Positions 49,989 to 61,322 of a stretch of 64,000 nucleotides of DNA are shown here, in pieces; within the stretch, counting starts at the first letter, position 1, and each line of letters begins with the position of its first letter. The DNA is taken from positions 1 through 64,000 of the forward strand of contig JAJDWK010000072.1 of assembly GCA_022825675.1 (NCBI GenBank). The letters are read 5' to 3'. The notes under the pieces are model-generated. The model ran no database searches. It saw nothing but the letters and a program-made list of their open reading frames with translations, and was not told where the DNA came from. Origin of the DNA: Anaerolineae bacterium. Its GTDB lineage: Bacteria; Chloroflexota; Anaerolineae; Aggregatilineales; Phototrophicaceae. The translations under genes were made by a program, and so were the position numbers.

Positions 49989-50435
49989 TTAGCTCAAAAG
50001 CTGCCAGTATCGCAGCAGCGCGTCCGCCCCCAGCAGATAACTGTGCCAGCCGAAGCCTGCGATTTGCCCCAGGCAAACGCCCGCGAGCAGCGACTGGTGG
50101 CGAAAGGCTTCACGCGCGTGGATGTTGGACAGATGCACTTCGATGACGGGCGTGGCGATGCCGCCGATGGCATCGCGCAAGGCGATGGAAGTATGGGTAT
50201 AGGCACCGGGATTAAATATGACGCCATCCGCCCAGGCTTTTGCGCTGTGCAGATGCTCGATGAGCGCGCCCTCGTGATTGGATTGCTCGGCGCGCAGCCC
50301 CACGGAATAGCGCTCGACATGGGCTTTTACGGCGTCGTTAATCGCGGCGAGCGTCATGCTGCCATAGATCTCTGGCTCGCGGCCGCCCAAGAGATTGAGA
50401 TTGGGACCGTGCAAGAGCAAAATCTGTTTGTGCAT
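49989..50435 (-). CDS. aroQ: 3-dehydroquinate dehydratase, type II
   Basis: [54 protein letters not shown]. Confidence 0.97.
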
Positions 50436-50451
50436 TGCCTTCAGCCCCCTT

Positions 50452-51966
50452 TTATAAGACCGCCAGTATTTCTTCTTTTGATATGCCTTCGATGACAGTT
50501 GCCGCGCCCACCCCTTTCAGCAATACCAGACGCGGCACTCCCGCTTTCCATTTCTTGTCGGTTGCCATCGCCGCGTACCAGCGCTCCGCATCCAGTTGGA
50601 TGTCAGTCGGCAAGCCGATGTGCCGCAGCAATCGCTGAATCCTGGATACCAGCGCGTCATCAATCATGCCCAGATTTCGCGAAAGCAGCGCCGCTTTGAC
50701 GATGCCGATGGCGACGGCTTCGCCATGCGGCACGGCGAATTGCGTGACCTTTTCGATGGCATGGCCGAAAGTATGCCCGAGGTTCAGGTGCGCGCGAATA
50801 CCATGCTCAAAGGGGTCAGCCTCCACCACATCAATTTTGACTTGAATTGCTTGGCGCAGCAAGCGCGCCGCCTGTTCCGGCGCCCAAAGTTCCGGCTCCA
50901 ACAAGGCGGGCTGGGCAATCAAACCATGTTTTATCACCTCCGCCATACCGCAGCGCCATTGCGTCTCGGGCAGAGTCTTTAAGGTATCGGTATCCAGCAG
51001 CACAGTTTCCGGCTGTTTGAAAGCGCCAATCAAGTTTTTGCCCTGCGGCAGGTCGACGCCAACTTTGCCGCCGACGCTGGCATCCACCATGGCGAGCAAA
51101 CTGGTAGGCGCTTGCACAAAGCGGATGCCGCGCATATAAGTCGCCGCCGCGAAGCCCGCCATATCGCCGATGACGCCGCCGCCCAAAGCCAGCAGCGTGC
51201 TGGAGCGGTCGGCACCGTGGGCGAGCATGGCATCGTAGAGCTGCCGCACCGTGCCCAAAGTTTTGTGTTTTTCGCCATCAGGCACGGTGATGAGATCCGC
51301 CCGCGGCAAGCTCTTGACCAGCGCTTCGCCATAAAGCGGCGCCACCGTCTCGTTGCTGACCACGATGACATGCCCCGTCAAGCCCAGGCGCTCGGCATCT
51401 TGGGGGATTTGCTTGAGCAAGCCGCCGCCCAGCACTATCGGGTAGCCGCCAGCCGGCGTCTTGACATAGAGCGCCGTTTCATCAAGGGCGATGATTTCGC
51501 TGGCGAGCTGCTCGGGAGTTTTGCCCATAGTCTCGATTTGATGCGGCAAACTTGCGTAGACTTCGCGGCGGGCGGCATAAAGCTCTTGCCAATTGGGCGC
51601 CAGCGGGCGCTCGCCACTCGCCGTCAGACGGGAATGTAATGCCGCCGCGTCCGCGCTGAGGCAGAAGATTTTGCCGCTGCCCCCCAGCGCCGCCCGCACT
51701 TCATCGTCGATAAGCGTGCCACCACCAGTCGCGATGACGAGAGTCTTGCGCTGCGCCAGCTCGAATGCCAGCTGCCGCTCCAGCGCGCGGAATGCCGCTT
51801 CGCCCTGCTTGGCGAAAATCTGCGCGATAGTCATGCTCGCCCGCGCTTCCAGCAGGCAATCCATATCAACAAATTCGCGCTTGAGCATAAGCGCGACAAT
51901 TGCGCCGACAGTGCTTTTGCCAACGCCCATGAAGCCGGTGAGGATGATGTTAGCGGCGGCTGTCAT
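50452..51966 (-). CDS. aroKB: Bifunctional shikimate kinase / 3-dehydroquinate synthase
   Basis: N-terminal [18 protein letters not shown]...DMDCLLE (SK); C-terminal [55 protein letters not shown] (DHQS). Confidence 0.95.
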
Positions 51967-53141
51967 AGCTCATAACCGAAGCGCCAGGCTTCGTTGTCCA
52001 TAGGCAAGTCTTCCAGCCGGTTACGCCGCAGCGCATCAAAACGGGGGCGCATCTCTTCCAGGCTGTCGCCGCCCAGTTTTTCCAACAGGGCATCCGCCAG
52101 CACAATCGCCATCATCGCCTCGCCCACCGGCACCGCCCGCGGCAACGCGCAGAAATCACTGCGCTCATAGACTGTTGGCTTGGGCGCGCCGCTCGCCAAA
52201 TCGACCGAATCCGCGCCGCGCAGCATAGTTGAGATTGGCTTCATCGCCACACGCACGATGACCGGCTCGCCGGTGCTGATGCCGCCTTCCAAGCCGCCGG
52301 CGCGGTTGCTGCGCCGCGAGAGATTTCCCGCGCCATCGGTGATGATGTCATCATGCACTTGGGAGCCGCGCTTGCCGGCGTTGGCAAAAGCGCTGCCGAT
52401 TTCCGCGCCTTTCATCGCCTGGATGCTGACCATCGCCGCGACCAGGCGGGCATCCAGCTTGCGGTCATACTGCACATGCGAACCCAAACCCGGCGGCAGA
52501 CCGCGCGCAACCACCTCAAAAACGCCGCCGAGCGTGTCCTTGTCAATTTTGACTTGGCGGATTAACGCGCGCATTTTTTCCGCCGCCGCCGCATCGGGGC
52601 AGCGCACTTCATTGTCTTCGTTGCGCGCGATGCGCTCGTCCAGCGGCATAGCGGCAAGGTCAGCGATTACATCGCCCACTTGGGCGACATAGCCATCGAC
52701 GCGGATGCCAAATTCGCCGAGATAGCGCTTGCAGATTGCGCCGATGGCGACGCGCATGGTCGTTTCCCGCGCGCTCGCCCGCTCCAGCGACAGCCGCAGT
52801 TCGCGATAGCCGTATTTCAGCGCGCCAGTCAAATCGGCATGCCCGGGGCGCGGCGTCGTAAGCGGCTCGATATCGCGCTCTTTCCAGCTGCGGAAATCAC
52901 GATTTTGTACTTGCAGGGCGATGGGGGCGCCGGTTGTCGCGCCATTCATGACGCCGGCGGTGATGATGACGCGGTCTTTTTCAATCTGCATGCGCCCGCC
53001 AGAGCCATAGCCTTTCTGCCGGCGCTGCAAATCCCGATTGATGTCCGCAGCCGCAATCGGCAAGCCGGCCGGCATGCCTTCAAGGATGGCGGTTAAGCCA
53101 GGTCCATGGCTTTCGCCAGCGGTGAAAAAGCGAATTGGCAT
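51963..53141 (-). CDS. aroC: Chorismate synthase
   Basis: FFTAGESHGPGLTAILEGMPAGLP; RRQKGYGSGGRMQIEKD; RPGHADLTGALKYG; NRAGGLEGGISTGEPV. Confidence 0.97.
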   Translation of the reverse strand: MPIRFFTAGESHGPGLTAILEGMPAGLPIAAADINRDLQRRQKGYGSGGRMQIEKDRVIITAGVMNGATTGAPIALQVQNRDFRSWKERDIEPLTTPRPGHADLTGALKYGYRELRLSLERASARETTMRVAIGAICKRYLGEFGIRVDGYVAQVGDVIADLAAMPLDERIARNEDNEVRCPDAAAAEKMRALIRQVKIDKDTLGGVFEVVARGLPPGLGSHVQYDRKLDARLVAAMVSIQAMKGAEIGSAFANAGKRGSQVHDDIITDGAGNLSRRSNRAGGLEGGISTGEPVIVRVAMKPISTMLRGADSVDLASGAPKPTVYERSDFCALPRAVPVGEAMMAIVLADALLEKLGGDSLEEMRPRFDALRRNRLEDLPMDNEAWRFGYEL

Positions 53142-53144
53142 AAG

Positions 53145-53984
53145 CTATCCGTCCTCAGTCTCGCCTGCTAAAGCGCCGCGCAGCGCGCCCAGCATCACAT
53201 CAATCGGCGGCGGGACGCCCGTCCATAGCTCAAAGGCGATCGCGCCTTGACGCGCCAACATGCCCAAGCCGCCAATCGCCCGCCCGCCATGCGCCGCCGC
53301 CTGCCGCATCAGCGCGGTGGTGGCGGGGCGATATACCATGTCATAGACAGTAATGCCCGCGGGGAAAGGCAGGCGGCGCGCCCAGGGCGTCCGCTCGCTG
53401 TGCGGGTGCAAGCCGACCGATGTGCAATTGACCAGCAGCGCCATATTCCAGTCAGCGGCCGCTTCCAGCGTCAGCACTTGCACCCCTTCGACACCTGCCG
53501 AGGCGCTCAAGCGCTGCACTAAATTAAGCGCCCGCGCGGCAGTGCGGTTGACGATTGCCACCTCTGCGCCCGCGCGCGTCAAGCCATAGACTGCCGCCCG
53601 CGCCGCGCCGCCCGCGCCCAAAATCAGCGCGCGACTGCCCGCCAGCGGCACATCATGCGCCCGCAAGTCGTTGATGAAGCCATCGGCATCGGTGTTGGTG
53701 CCGATATTGCTGCGAAAATCGACAGTGTTGACAGCGCCAATTGCGCGCGCCTTTTCGTCGGGGCGGACGAACTGCATAATCGCTTCTTTGTGCGGCACGG
53801 TAACATTGATGCCGATATAGCCGTGATTTTTGGGCTCACTTAAGCCAAGCCGCAATATATCCGGCGGGATCGCCATGGCATCATAGTGCCAGTCGCTCAT
53901 GCCCAGCGCGGCGAAAGCGGCATTGTGCATCAGCGGGCTCAGGCTGTGCGCAACCGGGAAGCCGATTACCCCAACGCGCTTCAT
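53145..53984 (-). CDS. aroE: Shikimate dehydrogenase
   Basis: VGVIGFPVAHSLSPLMHNAAFAALGM; GINVTVPHKEAIM; ILGAGGAARAAVYGL; NCTSVGLHP. Confidence 0.96.
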   Translation of the reverse strand: MKRVGVIGFPVAHSLSPLMHNAAFAALGMSDWHYDAMAIPPDILRLGLSEPKNHGYIGINVTVPHKEAIMQFVRPDEKARAIGAVNTVDFRSNIGTNTDADGFINDLRAHDVPLAGSRALILGAGGAARAAVYGLTRAGAEVAIVNRTAARALNLVQRLSASAGVEGVQVLTLEAAADWNMALLVNCTSVGLHPHSERTPWARRLPFPAGITVYDMVYRPATTALMRQAAAHGGRAIGGLGMLARQGAIAFELWTGVPPPIDVMLGALRGALAGETEDG

Positions 53985-54027
53985 ATCACATTCTCAATCA
54001 ATAAGTTCATTTTCATCTCGCGGCGAT

Positions 54028-55356
54028 TTAATCGGGGCGCAGCAGCGCGCCACAATCGGCGAGCGTTTTGGCAAAGCCGGGGAAGCTGTCACTGGCGCAG
54101 GCGGCATCGTTGATTATCGCGCCTTCCGCCGCTATCAGCCCGGCAATGGTCAGGCTCATGGCGATGCGGTGGTCATCATGCCCCTGCGCCTGCCCGCCCG
54201 TCAACTGCTGCGGTCCCACAATGCGGAAGCCATCTTCCCGCTCTTCAATGACTGCGCCCAGCTTTCGCAGCTCGGCTGCCATCACGGCAATACGATCGGT
54301 CTCTTTGACGCGCAGCTCACGCGCATCACGCACGATGGTTTCGCCCTCGGCTTGCGTCGCCGCCACCATCAAAATGGGGAATTCGTCAATCATGCGCACC
54401 ACGGTTGCGCCGCTAATCTCGACGCCGCGCAAAGCGCTTTTGCGGGCGCGGATATCGCCAATGGGCTCGCCCGCTTGCTCAGCGAGATTGCTGACGCTGA
54501 TGTCGCCGCCCATCGCCTCAAGCACTTCTAAGAGGCCTGTGCGCGTCGGATTGAGGTTGACGCCGCGTATCGTCAAGTCGGAATCAGGTACCAGCAAGCC
54601 CGCCACCAAAAGAAAGGCGGCGGAAGAAAAATCCCCGGGCACCGTGATATCCAGCGGCTGCAGCTTTTTCTTCGGCTCGATAGTGATGCGCTCGCTTGCG
54701 TCGAGATTCTCGTCAGCTGCCGCTGTGACGCTCACGCCCATAGAGCGCAGCATTCTTTCGGTGTGGTCGCGCGCTGGTCCCGGCTGGAGCACGGTCGTCG
54801 GCGCATCGGCATAAAGCCCCGCCAGCAGAATCGCGCTTTTGACCTGCCCGCTGGCAATCGGCATCGCATAACGGATGCCCTTGAGCGGCGCCGGCGCGAT
54901 GCGTATTGGGCAGAAGCCATCGCTGGCGCTGATGTCCGCGCCCATCAGCCGCAGCGGCTCGGTGATCCGTTTCATCGGGCGGCGGCGCAGCTGCGCGCTG
55001 CCATCCAGGACGCTGGGGAAGCTCTGCCCCGCCAGCAAACCCGCGAGCAGGCGAATGCCAGTGCCGGCGTTCATCAGGTTCAAAGGCGCTTGCGGCTGGC
55101 GCAAATTGCCGCCTTTGATGCTCAAGCTCGTGGCGTCATGCCGCTCAATGGCAGCGCCCAAAGCGCGCATCGCGCCCAGGGTCGCTTCGGTATCACCAGC
55201 TGCCAGCCAATTGCGTATCCGGGATTTGCCCTCGGCGATGGCAGCAAGCATGACGGCGCGGTGTGAAATCGATTTGTCACCCGGGACCGCCACCGCGCCG
55301 CGCAAGCGCGAGCCGGGGCGCAGGACAAACCGGGTCAGCCTAGCGTTGGGATTCAT
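54028..55356 (-). CDS. aroA: 3-phosphoshikimate 1-carboxyvinyltransferase (EPSP synthase)
   Basis: VPGDKSISHRAVMLAAIAEG; LMNAGTGIRLLAGLLAG; RELRVKETDRIAVMAAEL; DDHRIAMSLTIAGL. Confidence 0.97.
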   Translation of the reverse strand: MNPNARLTRFVLRPGSRLRGAVAVPGDKSISHRAVMLAAIAEGKSRIRNWLAAGDTEATLGAMRALGAAIERHDATSLSIKGGNLRQPQAPLNLMNAGTGIRLLAGLLAGQSFPSVLDGSAQLRRRPMKRITEPLRLMGADISASDGFCPIRIAPAPLKGIRYAMPIASGQVKSAILLAGLYADAPTTVLQPGPARDHTERMLRSMGVSVTAAADENLDASERITIEPKKKLQPLDITVPGDFSSAAFLLVAGLLVPDSDLTIRGVNLNPTRTGLLEVLEAMGGDISVSNLAEQAGEPIGDIRARKSALRGVEISGATVVRMIDEFPILMVAATQAEGETIVRDARELRVKETDRIAVMAAELRKLGAVIEEREDGFRIVGPQQLTGGQAQGHDDHRIAMSLTIAGLIAAEGAIINDAACASDSFPGFAKTLADCGALLRPD

Positions 55357-56224
55357 AATTTCGCGCCCATTTCTTCCGCGCTAAGCGGATTGGTCCCAGC
55401 TTTTGGCTCAGCCGCTGCTCATCCCCTGCCAGCAGCATCGTCTCCAGCATCGCCAATTGCATGCGGAATTGCGCCAGCAAAGTCGCCACCGCCTTGGTAT
55501 TTGTGCTGAGGATATCGCCCATCATTGTAACATCGCTGGCGGCGAGGCGGCTGGTATCGCGGAAGCCGCCAGCCGCCAGTTCCCAATAGGCGGTGTCAGT
55601 CTCGGCTTGGTCGGCGACAGTCGCGATGAGGGTCGCGCTCAGCAGGTAGGGCAGATGGCTGATGCCCGCGACAATTTTATCGTGGCGGTCGGCTTGCATT
55701 TCTATCGGCAGGGCACCCAAGCTCTCGACAAATGCCTGCGCGCGCAGGCGGGCGGCCGGGGTCGTGCGCCGCGAGGGACACAATACAAAGGGGCGATTGT
55801 GGAACAAGCTGCCGTCCGCTTCTTGGATGCCGCCATTTTCCTTTCCCGTCATCGGATGCCCGCCAACGGCGTTGACGCCAATCGGCAATTTTGCCATCGC
55901 ATCAACAATATCCTGTTTGGTGCTGCCGAGGTCTATCAACAGCGTGTTTGAGCGCAGGTACGAGCCGATGCGCATCGACAGCATTTCGATAATCACGCGC
56001 ACGGGGGTCGCCAAAACCACCACATCGGCGCTGTTGACGCCGGCGTACAAATCGGCAGTGGCGGCATCCACGATTTTGCTCTTGAGCGCCTGCTCGCGCG
56101 CCGCCGCATCAAGGTCAATGCCGGTGATATGCTCCGCCGCGCCACGCAGCGCCAGCGCCAGCGAGCCGCCCATCAAACCCAAGCCGACAATCGCCAGATG
56201 GCGCGCTCGAAAACCCGCTGACAT
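55340..56224 (-). CDS. tyrA: Prephenate dehydrogenase
   Basis: LAIVGLGLMGGSLALALRG; DLGSTKQDIVDAM; GGHPMTGKENGGIQEADGSLFHNRPFVLCP. ATG 56224 preferred. Confidence 0.93.
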   Translation of the reverse strand: MSAGFRARHLAIVGLGLMGGSLALALRGAAEHITGIDLDAAAREQALKSKIVDAATADLYAGVNSADVVVLATPVRVIIEMLSMRIGSYLRSNTLLIDLGSTKQDIVDAMAKLPIGVNAVGGHPMTGKENGGIQEADGSLFHNRPFVLCPSRRTTPAARLRAQAFVESLGALPIEMQADRHDKIVAGISHLPYLLSATLIATVADQAETDTAYWELAAGGFRDTSRLAASDVTMMGDILSTNTKAVATLLAQFRMQLAMLETMLLAGDEQRLSQKLGPIRLARKKWARNYESQR

Positions 56225-56613
56225 CAGTCGCCCCCCGCCGGCATATCCTGTGCCAGGTCGGGCCGCAGCACCGCCGCCCCCCGCAGGAATACATGTCGGA
56301 TTTCGTCCAGCGATTTCTCGGTATTCCAGTGAATCAGCACGCGGATGCACATCGGCAAGCCATGTTTGACATCCGCTTCCTGGAAGCCCATGAGGGCGGT
56401 GCGCGTCCAGCCCATCAGGCGCGCGGCTTTGGCGGGGAAGGTGTCGTCCAGCTCGGGCGTCGCGCTGAAGAGAACGCTCGCCACTTCTTCTTCGACGATG
56501 CCGTTGCGGTCAATCATCGCGCGCAGCAATTCCTGCGTCGCTTGTAAAATCGCCTCGTTCGAGTTGGTATCCACCGTGGTGGCGCCCCGTATGCCGCGTA
56601 TCATAAAGCGCAT
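56224..56613 (-). CDS. aroH: Monofunctional chorismate mutase (AroH type)
   Basis: MRFMIRGIRGATTVDTNSNEAILQATQELLRAMIDRNGIVEEEVASVLFSATPELDDTFPAKAARLMGWTRTALMGFQEADV. ATG 56613 with GAGGGG SD. Confidence 0.95.
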   Translation of the reverse strand: MRFMIRGIRGATTVDTNSNEAILQATQELLRAMIDRNGIVEEEVASVLFSATPELDDTFPAKAARLMGWTRTALMGFQEADVKHGLPMCIRVLIHWNTEKSLDEIRHVFLRGAAVLRPDLAQDMPAGGD

Positions 56614-56632
56614 GCTCCCCTCAAAATTACAC

Positions 56633-56662
56633 AAAAAAAGCGCCGAGTGCTTCACTCTGCGC
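56633..56662 (-). terminator. Intrinsic terminator/attenuator immediately upstream of aroH
   Basis: Minus strand GCGCAGAGTG-AAG-CACTCGGCGC-TTTTTTT: 9 bp with one A.G mismatch plus U7, ending 19 nt before the aroH ATG. Confidence 0.85.
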
Positions 56663-56702
56663 CCCTTGTTTGTTCAGCAAGGATAGTTTATGTCAGCGCG
56701 AA

Positions 56703-56780
56703 TCACCCAGACCGGTCTATGCAGTTTGGGCAGTAATAATAGTCTAGTGCAATCGCTCTTGCTAGACTGCGCTCAATCAT
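56703..56780 (-). CDS. Candidate 25-aa leader peptide with three consecutive Tyr codons (MIERSLARAIALDYYYCPNCIDRSG)
   Basis: Codon-by-codon reading: ATG ATT GAG CGC AGT CTA GCA AGA GCG ATT GCA CTA GAC TAT TAT TAC TGC CCA AAC TGC ATA GAC CGG TCT GGG TGA; lies 5' of the aroH terminator. Below the ORF-track length cutoff. Confidence 0.5.
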   Translation of the reverse strand: MIERSLARAIALDYYYCPNCIDRSG

Positions 56781-58416
56781 AGTCAATACTTGCTCCGCTA
56801 GGTATCGGATGCGATTTGTAACGGGATGCGATTCGCCGCCAATTTATATCGCTCGCGTCATTACCTCGGCAGACAATGCGGTTCGCATTGCTCGCACTAA
56901 TGTCCATGGAAACGCTTGGCGCAGTGAATTTCCGTCCGATATCGCTCGTGAAATGGCTCAACCCAATTAACTTTAGCGTATTGGGGATATCTTGTCCAAC
57001 CCGAATTGCACAGATGATCTTGAAGGCGACTTCGTTGGCAATTTGTTCGTTGGGAATGAAGGGCCAAGGCTTAAGGTCGTAATCAATGGTGGTGGACGAG
57101 TTAGAAATCTCGATATCAAGGATACGGATATCATCCGCGTGACGGGAAACGAGTGTTCGGATTTCACTGGCGTCTAATTTGGTTTCGGGACTTGGTACGG
57201 GTGTAGCGCGTCGGGTCGATTGGTTTGCTGAAGTTGATACGTGAGTGTCATCTGTTACTGGCAAAGTTAATATGTCACCGCCTAAGTGAATGTAGTTGGC
57301 ATTAATCCAGCCATCATTTAATTGTAGCCAACTGCCTGATTCATTGCGCCCAATTGCAAACACTTGATCGCCGCGTCGCAGCTGTTCCAGTCTCTCGCTT
57401 CCCGCATACCTAGGTCCGGATCTCAAGTAGACAACGGGAAGTCCTGTAATTGCGCCTTTAATTCCTGCTGGCGAAGATGGCAAACGCATCATATCACCAC
57501 TGACTTCAACCGATTCGGCCGTTATCCAGCCCCGCACGGTTTGCAACCATAAGCCGTCTTCAGTGCGCATCAAGACAAGCTTCTCGTCGCGTTCATCTAA
57601 GATACCGACAATGCTACTGTTTATACTAGGATTGGAATAGACATTCTGCTCCGTAAGCGCCATGAGAGATACGAAATAGGCTTGCGGCAAAGACATCAAG
57701 TCGCCGCTTATATCCATTCCGCTGGCGATATTAAGCCAGCCCATAGGGGTTTTGACCCAGTTGGAATCAGCGGTGCGTTCATAGGCAAAGACTTCATCCC
57801 CGTGCGGGAAAATCTCAAGTACATCGGCTTCCCAAGTCGGCCCGCTGAGGAAAGCAGCGTTTTTGGCAGCGGTAACGGTGATGCTGGCGAAGCTCACTGG
57901 CAACAATAATATATCGCCATCGAATTCGACCTCGCTGGCTGGGATCCATCCCTTCGGTGTCTCTAGCCATGTGCCGTCATGATTCCTTCCAATCGCAACG
58001 GAGAACTGCCCAATAAGAATTTCTTCAGTCGTAATATAGCTGCCGTCCGGCCCGCTACGCAGGCCAAGTTTCGCGAAGGCCTGCAGAGTGAGAGCCCCCT
58101 CAGTCTGCCGCAGAGTCATGATATCTCCGGCTGCCGCGACATTTCGGGAGTTCACCCAGCCTTCCGCACATTGCAGCCAGTCCCCTTCGGCATCCCGCCC
58201 GAAGGCGTTCAGTTCCTCTCCGCTTTCAAATACGCCCAAGACGTTTGAGTAAAAGTCTGGTCTGCTGTGAAATGCAAGGTTTTGCTTCGCAAGTATGGTG
58301 ACTTCATGCGCCTCTTCGTTCCACTGCACTAATGTCGAAATGCGCTCTTGAGCACGCACCGATACTGAAATGACAGCGGCGACAGCTAATACCAAGTAAG
58401 CCAACCGTTTAGGCAT
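56773..58416 (-). CDS. Secreted multi-SH3-like (bacterial SH3b) repeat protein
   Basis: Signal peptide MPKRLAYLVLAVAAVISVSVRAQ, then five degenerate repeats of the type (N.AFHSRPDFYSNVLGVFESGEELNAFGRDAEGDWLQCAEGWVN; VYLRSGPRYAGSERLEQLRRGDQVFAIGRNESGSWLQLNDGWINANYIHLGGDILTLP). Confidence 0.85.
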   Translation of the reverse strand: MPKRLAYLVLAVAAVISVSVRAQERISTLVQWNEEAHEVTILAKQNLAFHSRPDFYSNVLGVFESGEELNAFGRDAEGDWLQCAEGWVNSRNVAAAGDIMTLRQTEGALTLQAFAKLGLRSGPDGSYITTEEILIGQFSVAIGRNHDGTWLETPKGWIPASEVEFDGDILLLPVSFASITVTAAKNAAFLSGPTWEADVLEIFPHGDEVFAYERTADSNWVKTPMGWLNIASGMDISGDLMSLPQAYFVSLMALTEQNVYSNPSINSSIVGILDERDEKLVLMRTEDGLWLQTVRGWITAESVEVSGDMMRLPSSPAGIKGAITGLPVVYLRSGPRYAGSERLEQLRRGDQVFAIGRNESGSWLQLNDGWINANYIHLGGDILTLPVTDDTHVSTSANQSTRRATPVPSPETKLDASEIRTLVSRHADDIRILDIEISNSSTTIDYDLKPWPFIPNEQIANEVAFKIICAIRVGQDIPNTLKLIGLSHFTSDIGRKFTAPSVSMDISASNANRIVCRGNDASDINWRRIASRYKSHPIPSGASIDYD

Positions 58417-58542
58417 ATTATGAATCTCCTCAGCATCGTAGAGCAAACGCAAGCCAACACCTTGTCGTGAATTATTCGCAGAATCTAACCAAAATTATAA
58501 TCCACATTCACGGTTGTAGCTGCCCCTTGCCAAAGCGGAAGC

Positions 58543-58596: not shown

Positions 58597-59406
58597 TCAA
58601 TTTCTGATCGCCTTGACCATCGCGCTTGCCAGTTCCCGCGCCGCGTCCACACTTTCGCCGCCAGCGCGCACCAGCGCTGAGCCAACGATGAAGCCATCCG
58701 TCAAGGCGCTGACCTGCTTGGCATGCGCTGTTGTGCTGATGCCGAAGCCCAGCACCAGCGGCATATCCGTTTGTTGCCGCAGCCGCGCGATGAAACTCGT
58801 GAGATTCGCCGGCAAATCTTTGCGCGCGCCGGTGATGCCCGTCAGCGATACGACATAAATAAAGCCGCTCGCCGCTTCCGCCGCCAGCGCTATGCGCTTG
58901 TCATCGCTTGTGGGCGCCAGCATAAATACCAGCGCCATGCCTTCGCGGGCGCAGCTGCCGCTGAACATCGCCGCTTCTTCCGGCGGCAAATCGGGCACAA
59001 TCAAGCCGTCAGCGCCCGCCGCCCGCGCATCAAGCACAAAACGCTCGGGACCGTACGCCACCAGCGGGTTGGCATAGCCCATCAGCAGCATCGGCTGCTG
59101 AATGCCGCGCCGGCGCAGCGCCCGCAGCGCTTCCAGGCAGCGCCGTACGCTAGCGCCATTTTCCAGCGCTATCTGAGTCGCCGCCTGAATTGTTGGTCCA
59201 TCCGCGATGGGATCGCTGAAAGGAATGCCAATCTCAAAGCCATCAACGCCGGCCGTCGCCAGCGCTTGTATCACCGCCAGCGATTCTTCATGCGTTGGAT
59301 AGCCTATCGGGAAATAGGGCATAAATGCCGCCCGCCCCTGCGCGCGAGCGCGGGCAAACATAGCTGCCAGCGCGGCAATGCCTTGAATCTCTCGCCTGTA
59401 AGTCAT
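58597..59406 (-). CDS. trpA: Tryptophan synthase alpha chain
   Basis: AAFMPYFPIGYPTHEESLAVIQALATAGVDGFEIGIPFSDPIADGPTIQAA; LIVPDLPPEE. Confidence 0.97.
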   Translation of the reverse strand: MTYRREIQGIAALAAMFARARAQGRAAFMPYFPIGYPTHEESLAVIQALATAGVDGFEIGIPFSDPIADGPTIQAATQIALENGASVRRCLEALRALRRRGIQQPMLLMGYANPLVAYGPERFVLDARAAGADGLIVPDLPPEEAAMFSGSCAREGMALVFMLAPTSDDKRIALAAEAASGFIYVVSLTGITGARKDLPANLTSFIARLRQQTDMPLVLGFGISTTAHAKQVSALTDGFIVGSALVRAGGESVDAARELASAMVKAIRN

Positions 59407-59428
59407 TTGATGTCACTCTGCTCTCGCG

Positions 59429-60652
59429 CTATTCGCCCAAAATGCCGATGACTGTATCCAGGTCTTTATCCCCCCGCCCCGACAGGTTCACCAAAAGCAG
59501 GCTGTCCCGCGGCATTGTCGGCGCCCGCTTAATCGCCTCGGCGAGGGCATGCGCGCTCTCCAGGGCGGGGATGATGCCTTCGGTTTTGCTGAGCGTTTGG
59601 AAGGCTGCCAGCGCCTCCTCATCAGTCGCCAGCGTATAATAGGCGCGCTCTAACTGGCGCAGATGGGCATGTTCAGGACCGACCGAGGGATAATCCAAAC
59701 CGGCGGAGACGCTGTGCGTTTCCATAATTTGCCCATCGCTGTTCTGCATCACATAGGAACGGGTGCCATGCAAAATGCCCGGGCGGCTGATATCAAGATC
59801 GGCAAAGCGCGCGGCATGTTCCCGGCTTTCGATGCCGCGCCCGCCCGCTTCCACGCCGATGAGTTCCGTATCATGGTCATCACGAAAGGCGTGAAACATG
59901 CCGATAGCATTGCTGCCGCCGCCAACGCAGGCGATGCAGGCATCGGGCAAACGCCCCGCCGCTTCCAGAATCTGCTCGCGCGCTTCAAAGCCGATGACGC
60001 TTTGGAAATCCCGCACCATCATCGGGTAGGGATGCGGTCCCAGCGCCGAGCCCAAGAGATAAAAGGTCGTCTCGACATGGGTCACCCAGTCGCGCATCGC
60101 CTCGTTGATGGCGTCTTTAAGCGTGCGGCTGCCGCTCTCTACGGGAATGACTTCGGCACCCAGCAATTTCATGCGGAAGACATTGGGCTGCTGGCGGCGG
60201 ATATCAACGCTGCCCATATACACATGGCAGTCCAAACCCAGCAGCGCCATCGCGGTGGCTGTGCCCACGCCATGCTGCCCGGCGCCCGTCTCCGCGATGA
60301 TGCGCCGCTTGCCCATCCGTTTCGCCAGCAGTCCCTGCCCCAAAGCATTGTTGATTTTGTGCGCGCCCGTATGCGCCAGGTCTTCGCGCTTCAGGTAAAT
60401 TTGCGCGCCGCCCAGCGCTTCGCTCAGCCTTTTTGCATGGGAAATGGGCGTTGGGCGCCCGGTATAAGTCCGCTGCAAATGGCTTAGCTCATGATGAAAT
60501 TGCGGGTCGGCAAGCGCTTCGGCATAGGCGGCTTCCAGCTCATCCAGCGCCGGCATAATCGTCTCGGGCACAAAGCGCCCGCCAAATTCGCCAAAATAGC
60601 CCTGCGCATCCGGCAGATCCGTGACTTGCCTGCGGATATAAGACTCAATCAT
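59429..60652 (-). CDS. trpB: Tryptophan synthase beta chain
   Basis: [77 protein letters not shown] 60652 preferred. Confidence 0.97.
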
Positions 60653-61322
60653 GACTCTGTTCCTCGTTGTCCGTCGCCCCCAGCGTGTGCAAAGAGAACG
60701 CAGAGAGCGAACTTTCGCCATTGAAATAGCGCCGCGCCAAGAGCAATGCCTTGCGGGCATAATCGTCCGCGCTGGGGACAAAATCCGCCCGCGTGATTGT
60801 GATGCGCCGCGCGCCCAAGCCAACAGCGGCGGCGGAAATGGCAGCGGTCTCGCCAGACAGCAGGCGGATGCCAGCGTCAAGCGGCAACTTGACCAAGCCG
60901 GCAAGCTCCGCTTTGCAATAGCGGTAGGCGCTCAAGTCCTGGTCGCATTCATAAAGAAATATGTGATAGATTTGGCGGTCGATACTCTCGCCATAGCGCT
61001 GAACGCCGCGCAGCCTCCCCAGCGGCACCAAGTCTTCAAAGCGCGCGCTTAAGCCCAATTCTTCTTCAAGCTCGCGGATGCCATCACGCGCGGTCTCGCC
61101 CGCTTCCAAATGTCCCCCAACGCTGACATCAATTTTGTCAGGATAAGTGTCCTGCTGCGGTCCGCGCTTTTGCAGCACGACAAATTGCTCGCCATCAGCC
61201 TCGCGCCCCACCACCCAACAGTGAAACACCTGATGCCAATCGCCATCGCGATGGGCGGCGGCGCGACTCTTGACGCCGATGTGCTTGAGCGCCGCGTCAA
61301 ATATGTCGACATATTCCGTCAT
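60645..61322 (-). CDS. NUDIX hydrolase
   Basis: NUDIX box [22 protein letters not shown] matches GX5EX7REUXEEXGU; embedded between trpF and trpB. Confidence 0.9.

Follow-up and report, generated by a model that had tools for sequence, protein, structure and literature searches.

The DNA immediately upstream of aroH in the window, by which we mean the whole 64,000-nucleotide stretch that was analysed, is very likely to encode a ribosome-mediated transcription attenuator that controls aroH-tyrA-aroA-aroE-aroC-aroKB-aroQ and is derepressed when Tyr-tRNA becomes scarce. Our estimate of the probability of this reading, which is based on sequence comparison and folding, is roughly 0.86. An attenuator had been proposed at this place by the first-pass annotation, and the proposal is now backed by comparison of relatives across the genus and the class. 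The features concerned are listed below in the direction of transcription.

56773 to 58452, minus strand: SH3-domain gene, 559-aa ORF (PF08239), its stop overlapping the leader ATG
56703 to 56780, minus strand: leader ORF MIERSLARAIALDYYYCPNCIDRSG, 25 codons and a stop, read directly (ATG at 56780, stop TGA at 56705-56703)
56733 to 56741, minus strand: three adjacent Tyr codons TAT TAT TAC, read directly, the predicted sensor
56706 to 56730, minus strand: highly conserved core CCCAAACTGCATAGACCGGTCTGGG, from RNAalifold, a single copy per genome
56695 to 56702, minus strand: TTCGCGCT, predicted 5' strand of the antiterminator, directly after the leader stop (RNAalifold)
56640 to 56663, minus strand: intrinsic terminator hairpin (G)GCGCAGAGTG-AAG-CACTCGGCGC, from direct reading and folding, -15 kcal/mol
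56633 to 56639, minus strand: T7 tract of the terminator, read directly
56224 to 56613, minus strand: aroH, chorismate mutase (TIGR01796 / PF07736)
55340 to 56350, minus strand: tyrA, prephenate dehydrogenase (PF02153/PF20463)
49989 to 55356, minus strand: aroA, aroE, aroC, aroKB and aroQ, the remaining operon genes, predicted to come under the attenuator (NCBIfam and Pfam)

Direct reading of the minus strand confirmed the 25-codon ORF with TAT TAT TAC that had been annotated; it has three Tyr codons and no Phe codon. Within the core, RNAalifold predicts a hairpin (CCCA/TGGG, CTG/CGG, loop CATAGAC), which is possibly a pause or segment-1 hairpin. The AGTCTAG...CTAGACT hairpin, previously pointed out just 5' of the Tyr codons, is not conserved among relatives. 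No Shine-Dalgarno site could be established for the leader, and the complete window leader folds no better than shuffled sequence (z = -1.1). Without the bracketed G, the terminator GCGCAGAGTG-AAG-CACTCGGCGC occupies 56662-56640; its 5' part, GGCGC-A-GAG (56663-56655), is held in common with the predicted antiterminator. The terminator and T7 tract lie where the annotation had placed them, and the 19-nt gap before aroH is correct when counted from the ATG at 56613. However, the start common to relatives is the next in-frame ATG at 56604 (M-I-R-G), which is probably the true aroH start, and from there the gap is 28 nt. The annotated gene order was borne out by NCBIfam and Pfam, and a glutamine synthetase gene follows the series. 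Of the 21 terminator-like hairpins in the window, the aroH one alone comes after a short leader ORF containing a Tyr run.

In the proposed mechanism, RNA polymerase would still be within the leader when a ribosome translating it arrives at the Tyr codons. If Tyr-tRNA is plentiful, the ribosome would continue to the stop codon and mask UUCGCGCU; the terminator 5' arm would then pair with the 3' arm, and transcription would end before aroH. With scarce Tyr-tRNA, the ribosome would stall on the Tyr run, leaving UUCGCGCU free to pair with GGCGC-A-GAG; the terminator would not form and the operon would be transcribed. Translation of the leader, the stalling, the switch itself and the role of Tyr as the signal in the genus are what we infer from the arrangement.

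The overlap between the leader ATG and the stop codon of the SH3-domain gene was also read in four other loci (L007, L016, L021 and L156). Many same-genus relatives have a TTGACA-17-TAnnnT promoter at a fixed place, from which transcription is predicted to start 63-70 nt upstream of where the Tyr run ends; this promoter is absent upstream of the leader in the window. Considering both the missing promoter and the overlap with the upstream stop codon, the leader may be transcribed as part of a longer RNA and translated in a coupled manner, and the SH3-domain gene is a possible source of both the leader transcript and its ribosomes. A promoter-like site inside that gene, at 56998-56970, is one of three found, compared to 2.6 expected by chance. 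Further upstream, trpB and trpA occupy 58597-60904 of the window on the strand of the leader, with the SH3-domain gene in between; in most genus loci that were read, the trp cluster is next to the aro cluster.

The window falls within Chloroflexota, near MAGs labelled Anaerolineae or Chloroflexi. The search for relatives covered 41 genomes, and 24 genomes of the same genus (the window's included) have aroH. The core CCAAACNGCATARNYCRG is found once in each of these 24, and the reversed control was never found. It should be mentioned that the core of one genome (G002) sits on a separate contig fragment, and that the apparent second copy in another (G021) is the overlap of two contig ends. One same-genus genome without aroH is also without the core. 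Leaders of the genus retain the core, the terminator and between two and four Tyr codons, whereas the N-terminal portion of the ORF varies freely.

The sample for the class Anaerolineae consisted of 116 aroH upstream regions, in which at least four Phe/Tyr in eight codons were taken as an aromatic run. A folded terminator together with an ORF whose stop lies 30-80 nt ahead of the T tract is present in 100 of the 116 regions, the median distance from leader stop to T tract in the class being 54 nt. An aromatic run is found in 89/116 regions (68/71 outside the genus and 21/29 within it), for example GYYYYYYYARG, FYFYFYF and YYYWFYFF; most of the genus leaders below the threshold have three Phe/Tyr, and one is truncated by a contig end. 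Two of the 16 regions with no called terminator are short contig ends, and L101, L113 and L115 are among the few of the 16 that still hold an aromatic ORF. As a control, 5 of 124 other terminators in the same kind of loci reach at least four Phe/Tyr. Four control terminators have at least five, three of them being aroH leaders missed by the filter (L064, L067 and L068) and one lying before an apparent DAHP synthase gene; after their removal, the background is 1 in about 120 unrelated terminators. In frame, Phe/Tyr make up 74% of the codons of the run, compared to 15% and 14% when either of the other frames is read, a figure that is partly due to the runs being picked for Phe/Tyr and for which the background terminator count is the better control. 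A terminator kept in relatives that had lost the short ORF or the Tyr codons would have spoken against the first-pass proposal; the opposite was found, as the ORF, the aromatic codon run and the terminator are retained together in genus and class. At the level of sequence, this comparison establishes the leader ORF with its aromatic run, the terminator and their order.

Leaders of a similar kind, such as FYRYFYYFTSPHTAWSLRTV, occur in several genomes outside the class, where a long hairpin with no clear T run follows them. Phe/Tyr-rich leaders precede aroH in loci of the phylum outside the class (L163, L165, L166, L167, L169, L170, L172, L173, L175, L176 and L178); leaders outside the class read RYFYYFTSPH... 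or YTYFFYFTSRK..., and a very stable hairpin comes next, again with no long T run. In a Dehalococcoidia MAG (L066:9440-9560), the leader MKKFFYTYYYFRT and a terminator stand before an apparent DAHP synthase gene, named by sequence reading, just after aroH. A contig labelled as a Bacteroidetes MAG (L049) has the order aroH-aroF-tyrA-aroA as in Anaerolineae and may be misbinned. A Cobalamin riboswitch match of 47.9 bits was recorded at L147:651-801, on the strand opposite aroH. The Phe codons in the class runs are TTT in 157 cases versus TTC in 29; the window has about 60% G+C.

The codon content of the leaders can be compared to the gene content of the operons. Members of the window's genus have tyrA directly after aroH and a run made up predominantly of Tyr; the genome of the window carries aroF and pheA on contigs other than that of the window. 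Most of the other Anaerolineae in the sample have aroF, or in some cases pheA, after aroH, together with a run of both Phe and Tyr. A second Tyr run occurs with aroH-tyrA in G388 (L076, KTYYYCG). The exceptions are L092, with seven Tyr and aroF present, and L030, with a mixed run and tyrA directly after aroH. The sequences sampled thus suggest a tendency toward Phe and Tyr leaders where aroF follows aroH and toward Tyr-dominated leaders where tyrA does. We tentatively propose, at somewhat less than even odds, an ancient Chloroflexota aromatic attenuator with codons that track the operon, combining Phe and Tyr with aroF/pheA and re-tuned to Tyr alone once these genes left, resulting in a natural Tyr-specific attenuator. 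The seeming shift of specificity from Phe and Tyr to Tyr where the operon is without aroF represents a natural experiment.

The same codons bear on an alternative that we regard as unlikely, in which the attenuator is of the same type and its true signal is a general aromatic shortage or Phe, with the Tyr codons serving as a proxy. The window leader, having three Tyr and no Phe, argues against it, and with aroF and pheA elsewhere in the genome, tyrA is thus the branch gene of the operon. A Phe or general aromatic signal would nevertheless fit the mixed runs outside the genus and the Phe codons near the run in some genus leaders. It would also fit the AroR leader of Corynebacterium glutamicum, which has Phe-Tyr-Phe and yet, according to PMC11802643, is affected by Phe limitation only.

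A Tyr-responsive attenuator calls for an antiterminator that competes with the terminator. When the terminator 3' arm is left out of the genus alignment, RNAalifold pairs UUCGCGCU with GGCGC-A-GAG instead of the CTGC-CC/GGGCGCAG pairing that had been suggested by eye, which is not the antiterminator. A first energy test, run from 20 nt before the stop onward with the bare arm, gave no signal (median p 0.5). Inspection of the sequences indicated that the segment is usually further upstream and that the pairing enters the terminator loop; the test was therefore widened to everything between the end of the run and the terminator, 4 nt of the loop were added to the arm, and dinucleotide shuffles served as the comparison. 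The widened test gives p<0.05 for 33 of the 70 leaders from outside the genus (p<0.01 for 19), many of them with 9-13 continuous pairs, such as CATCGCTCCATGC with GCGTGGAGCGATG (L110) and CTGCTTCACGC with GCGTGGAGCAG (L111).

Because the widened region was chosen after the data had been seen, the test relied on is a permutation in which arms are swapped between leaders. For 60 de-duplicated non-genus leaders, in which relatedness is only partly removed, the mean energy with the leader's own arm is -17.3 kcal/mol compared to -14.2 kcal/mol with permuted arms (z = -9.9, 0/5000). The signal resides wholly in the run-to-stop segment (z = -9.7) and is absent after the stop (z = +2.8). Judging from this covariation, which the comparison establishes outside the genus, the segment between the codon run and the stop is the antiterminator strand there. 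In the window's genus, the antiterminator energy is no better than that of shuffles (median p 0.37), and no signal comes from swapping the arms (z = +1.2). The arms of the genus are nearly invariant, so that covariation cannot test the UUCGCGCU/GGCGC-A-GAG pairing. The mutually exclusive fold foreseen in the first-pass annotation thus exists and covaries outside the genus, but within it neither energy nor covariation supports the pairing.

When the complete leader is folded at equilibrium, the terminator is usually favoured even with a stalled ribosome (genus mean 0.60 vs 0.25), and antitermination must therefore depend on co-transcriptional folding. For the nascent arm, pairing with upstream RNA is 0.71 with the ribosome on the run versus 0.36 with the ribosome at the stop in the genus, and 0.65 versus 0.25 outside, differences that partly reflect the amount of free RNA. 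When the families were aligned jointly, gaps were so frequent that no consensus emerged apart from the terminator. Sister genera have, by eye, a candidate CCAC/GTGG-type hairpin whose loop reads CATAG.

The near invariance of the segment after the run within the genus could also be explained by a leader peptide, YYYxPNCIDR, that arrests the ribosome when a small molecule is present, in a TnaC-like manner, with Tyr supply being secondary. This is very improbable, since the frame is lost after GGG (SG and stop versus SGVIRAxN and stop), the DNA conservation extends past the stop codon, and the peptides after the run are quite different in other families; together, these observations point toward a constraint on the RNA. 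Least credible is a T-box riboswitch binding uncharged tRNA-Tyr through a Tyr specifier codon: Tyr T-boxes are known in other bacteria (PMC1262725) and GGGUGAUUCGCG is loosely like the T-box motif, but there is no Rfam T-box match at gathering or relaxed thresholds, there is no space for Stem I between the run and the core, and neither tandem in-frame codons nor a class-wide Phe/Tyr exchange is needed by a T-box. For known riboswitches in general, the window has no Rfam match, and at a relaxed E-value the leader gives only a weak trpB-motif hit (19.9 bits versus a cut-off of 59).

The attenuator reading is a prediction of how aromatic amino acid synthesis is controlled in a bacterial class that is large and for the most part uncultured. 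The open-access papers searched contained no account of an aroH leader in Chloroflexota, and no Rfam family was found for it. Ribosome-mediated attenuation is a known kind of control; as far as could be checked, this member, its phylum and its Tyr run are new. A Tyr-only attenuator would be unusual, Phe or Trp being the signal in the aromatic attenuators for which we found a description. For E. coli aroF-tyrA, a control resembling attenuation was put forward as a hypothesis in 1980, as cited in PMC8632094.

Tyrosine T-box riboswitches likewise place aromatic genes under Tyr control through a terminator, as is predicted for the window, but they recognise the tRNA itself, for which Stem I and the T-box motif are required. 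The E. coli pheL-pheA, pheST and trpL attenuators have tandem regulatory codons, a terminator and an alternative antiterminator (see also PMC11802643) as proposed here; their codons are for Phe or Trp, the window leader has its stop just before the predicted antiterminator strand, and homology is not claimed. The uORFC-13-1 motif, as described in PMC8632094, also combines a predicted uORF and a terminator before a shikimate-pathway gene, but it occurs in Acholeplasma and environmental sequences, precedes aroF only and involves Phe, not Tyr. The AroR leader of the C. glutamicum aroF attenuator (Neshat et al. 2014) shares with the window a leader peptide with aromatic codons, Phe and Tyr in AroR, before a shikimate-pathway operon, and has the ribosome-mediated attenuation that is proposed for the window. 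The phylum and the operon are different, and the window leader carries Tyr codons only, in contrast to AroR, which according to PMC11802643 responds to Phe only.
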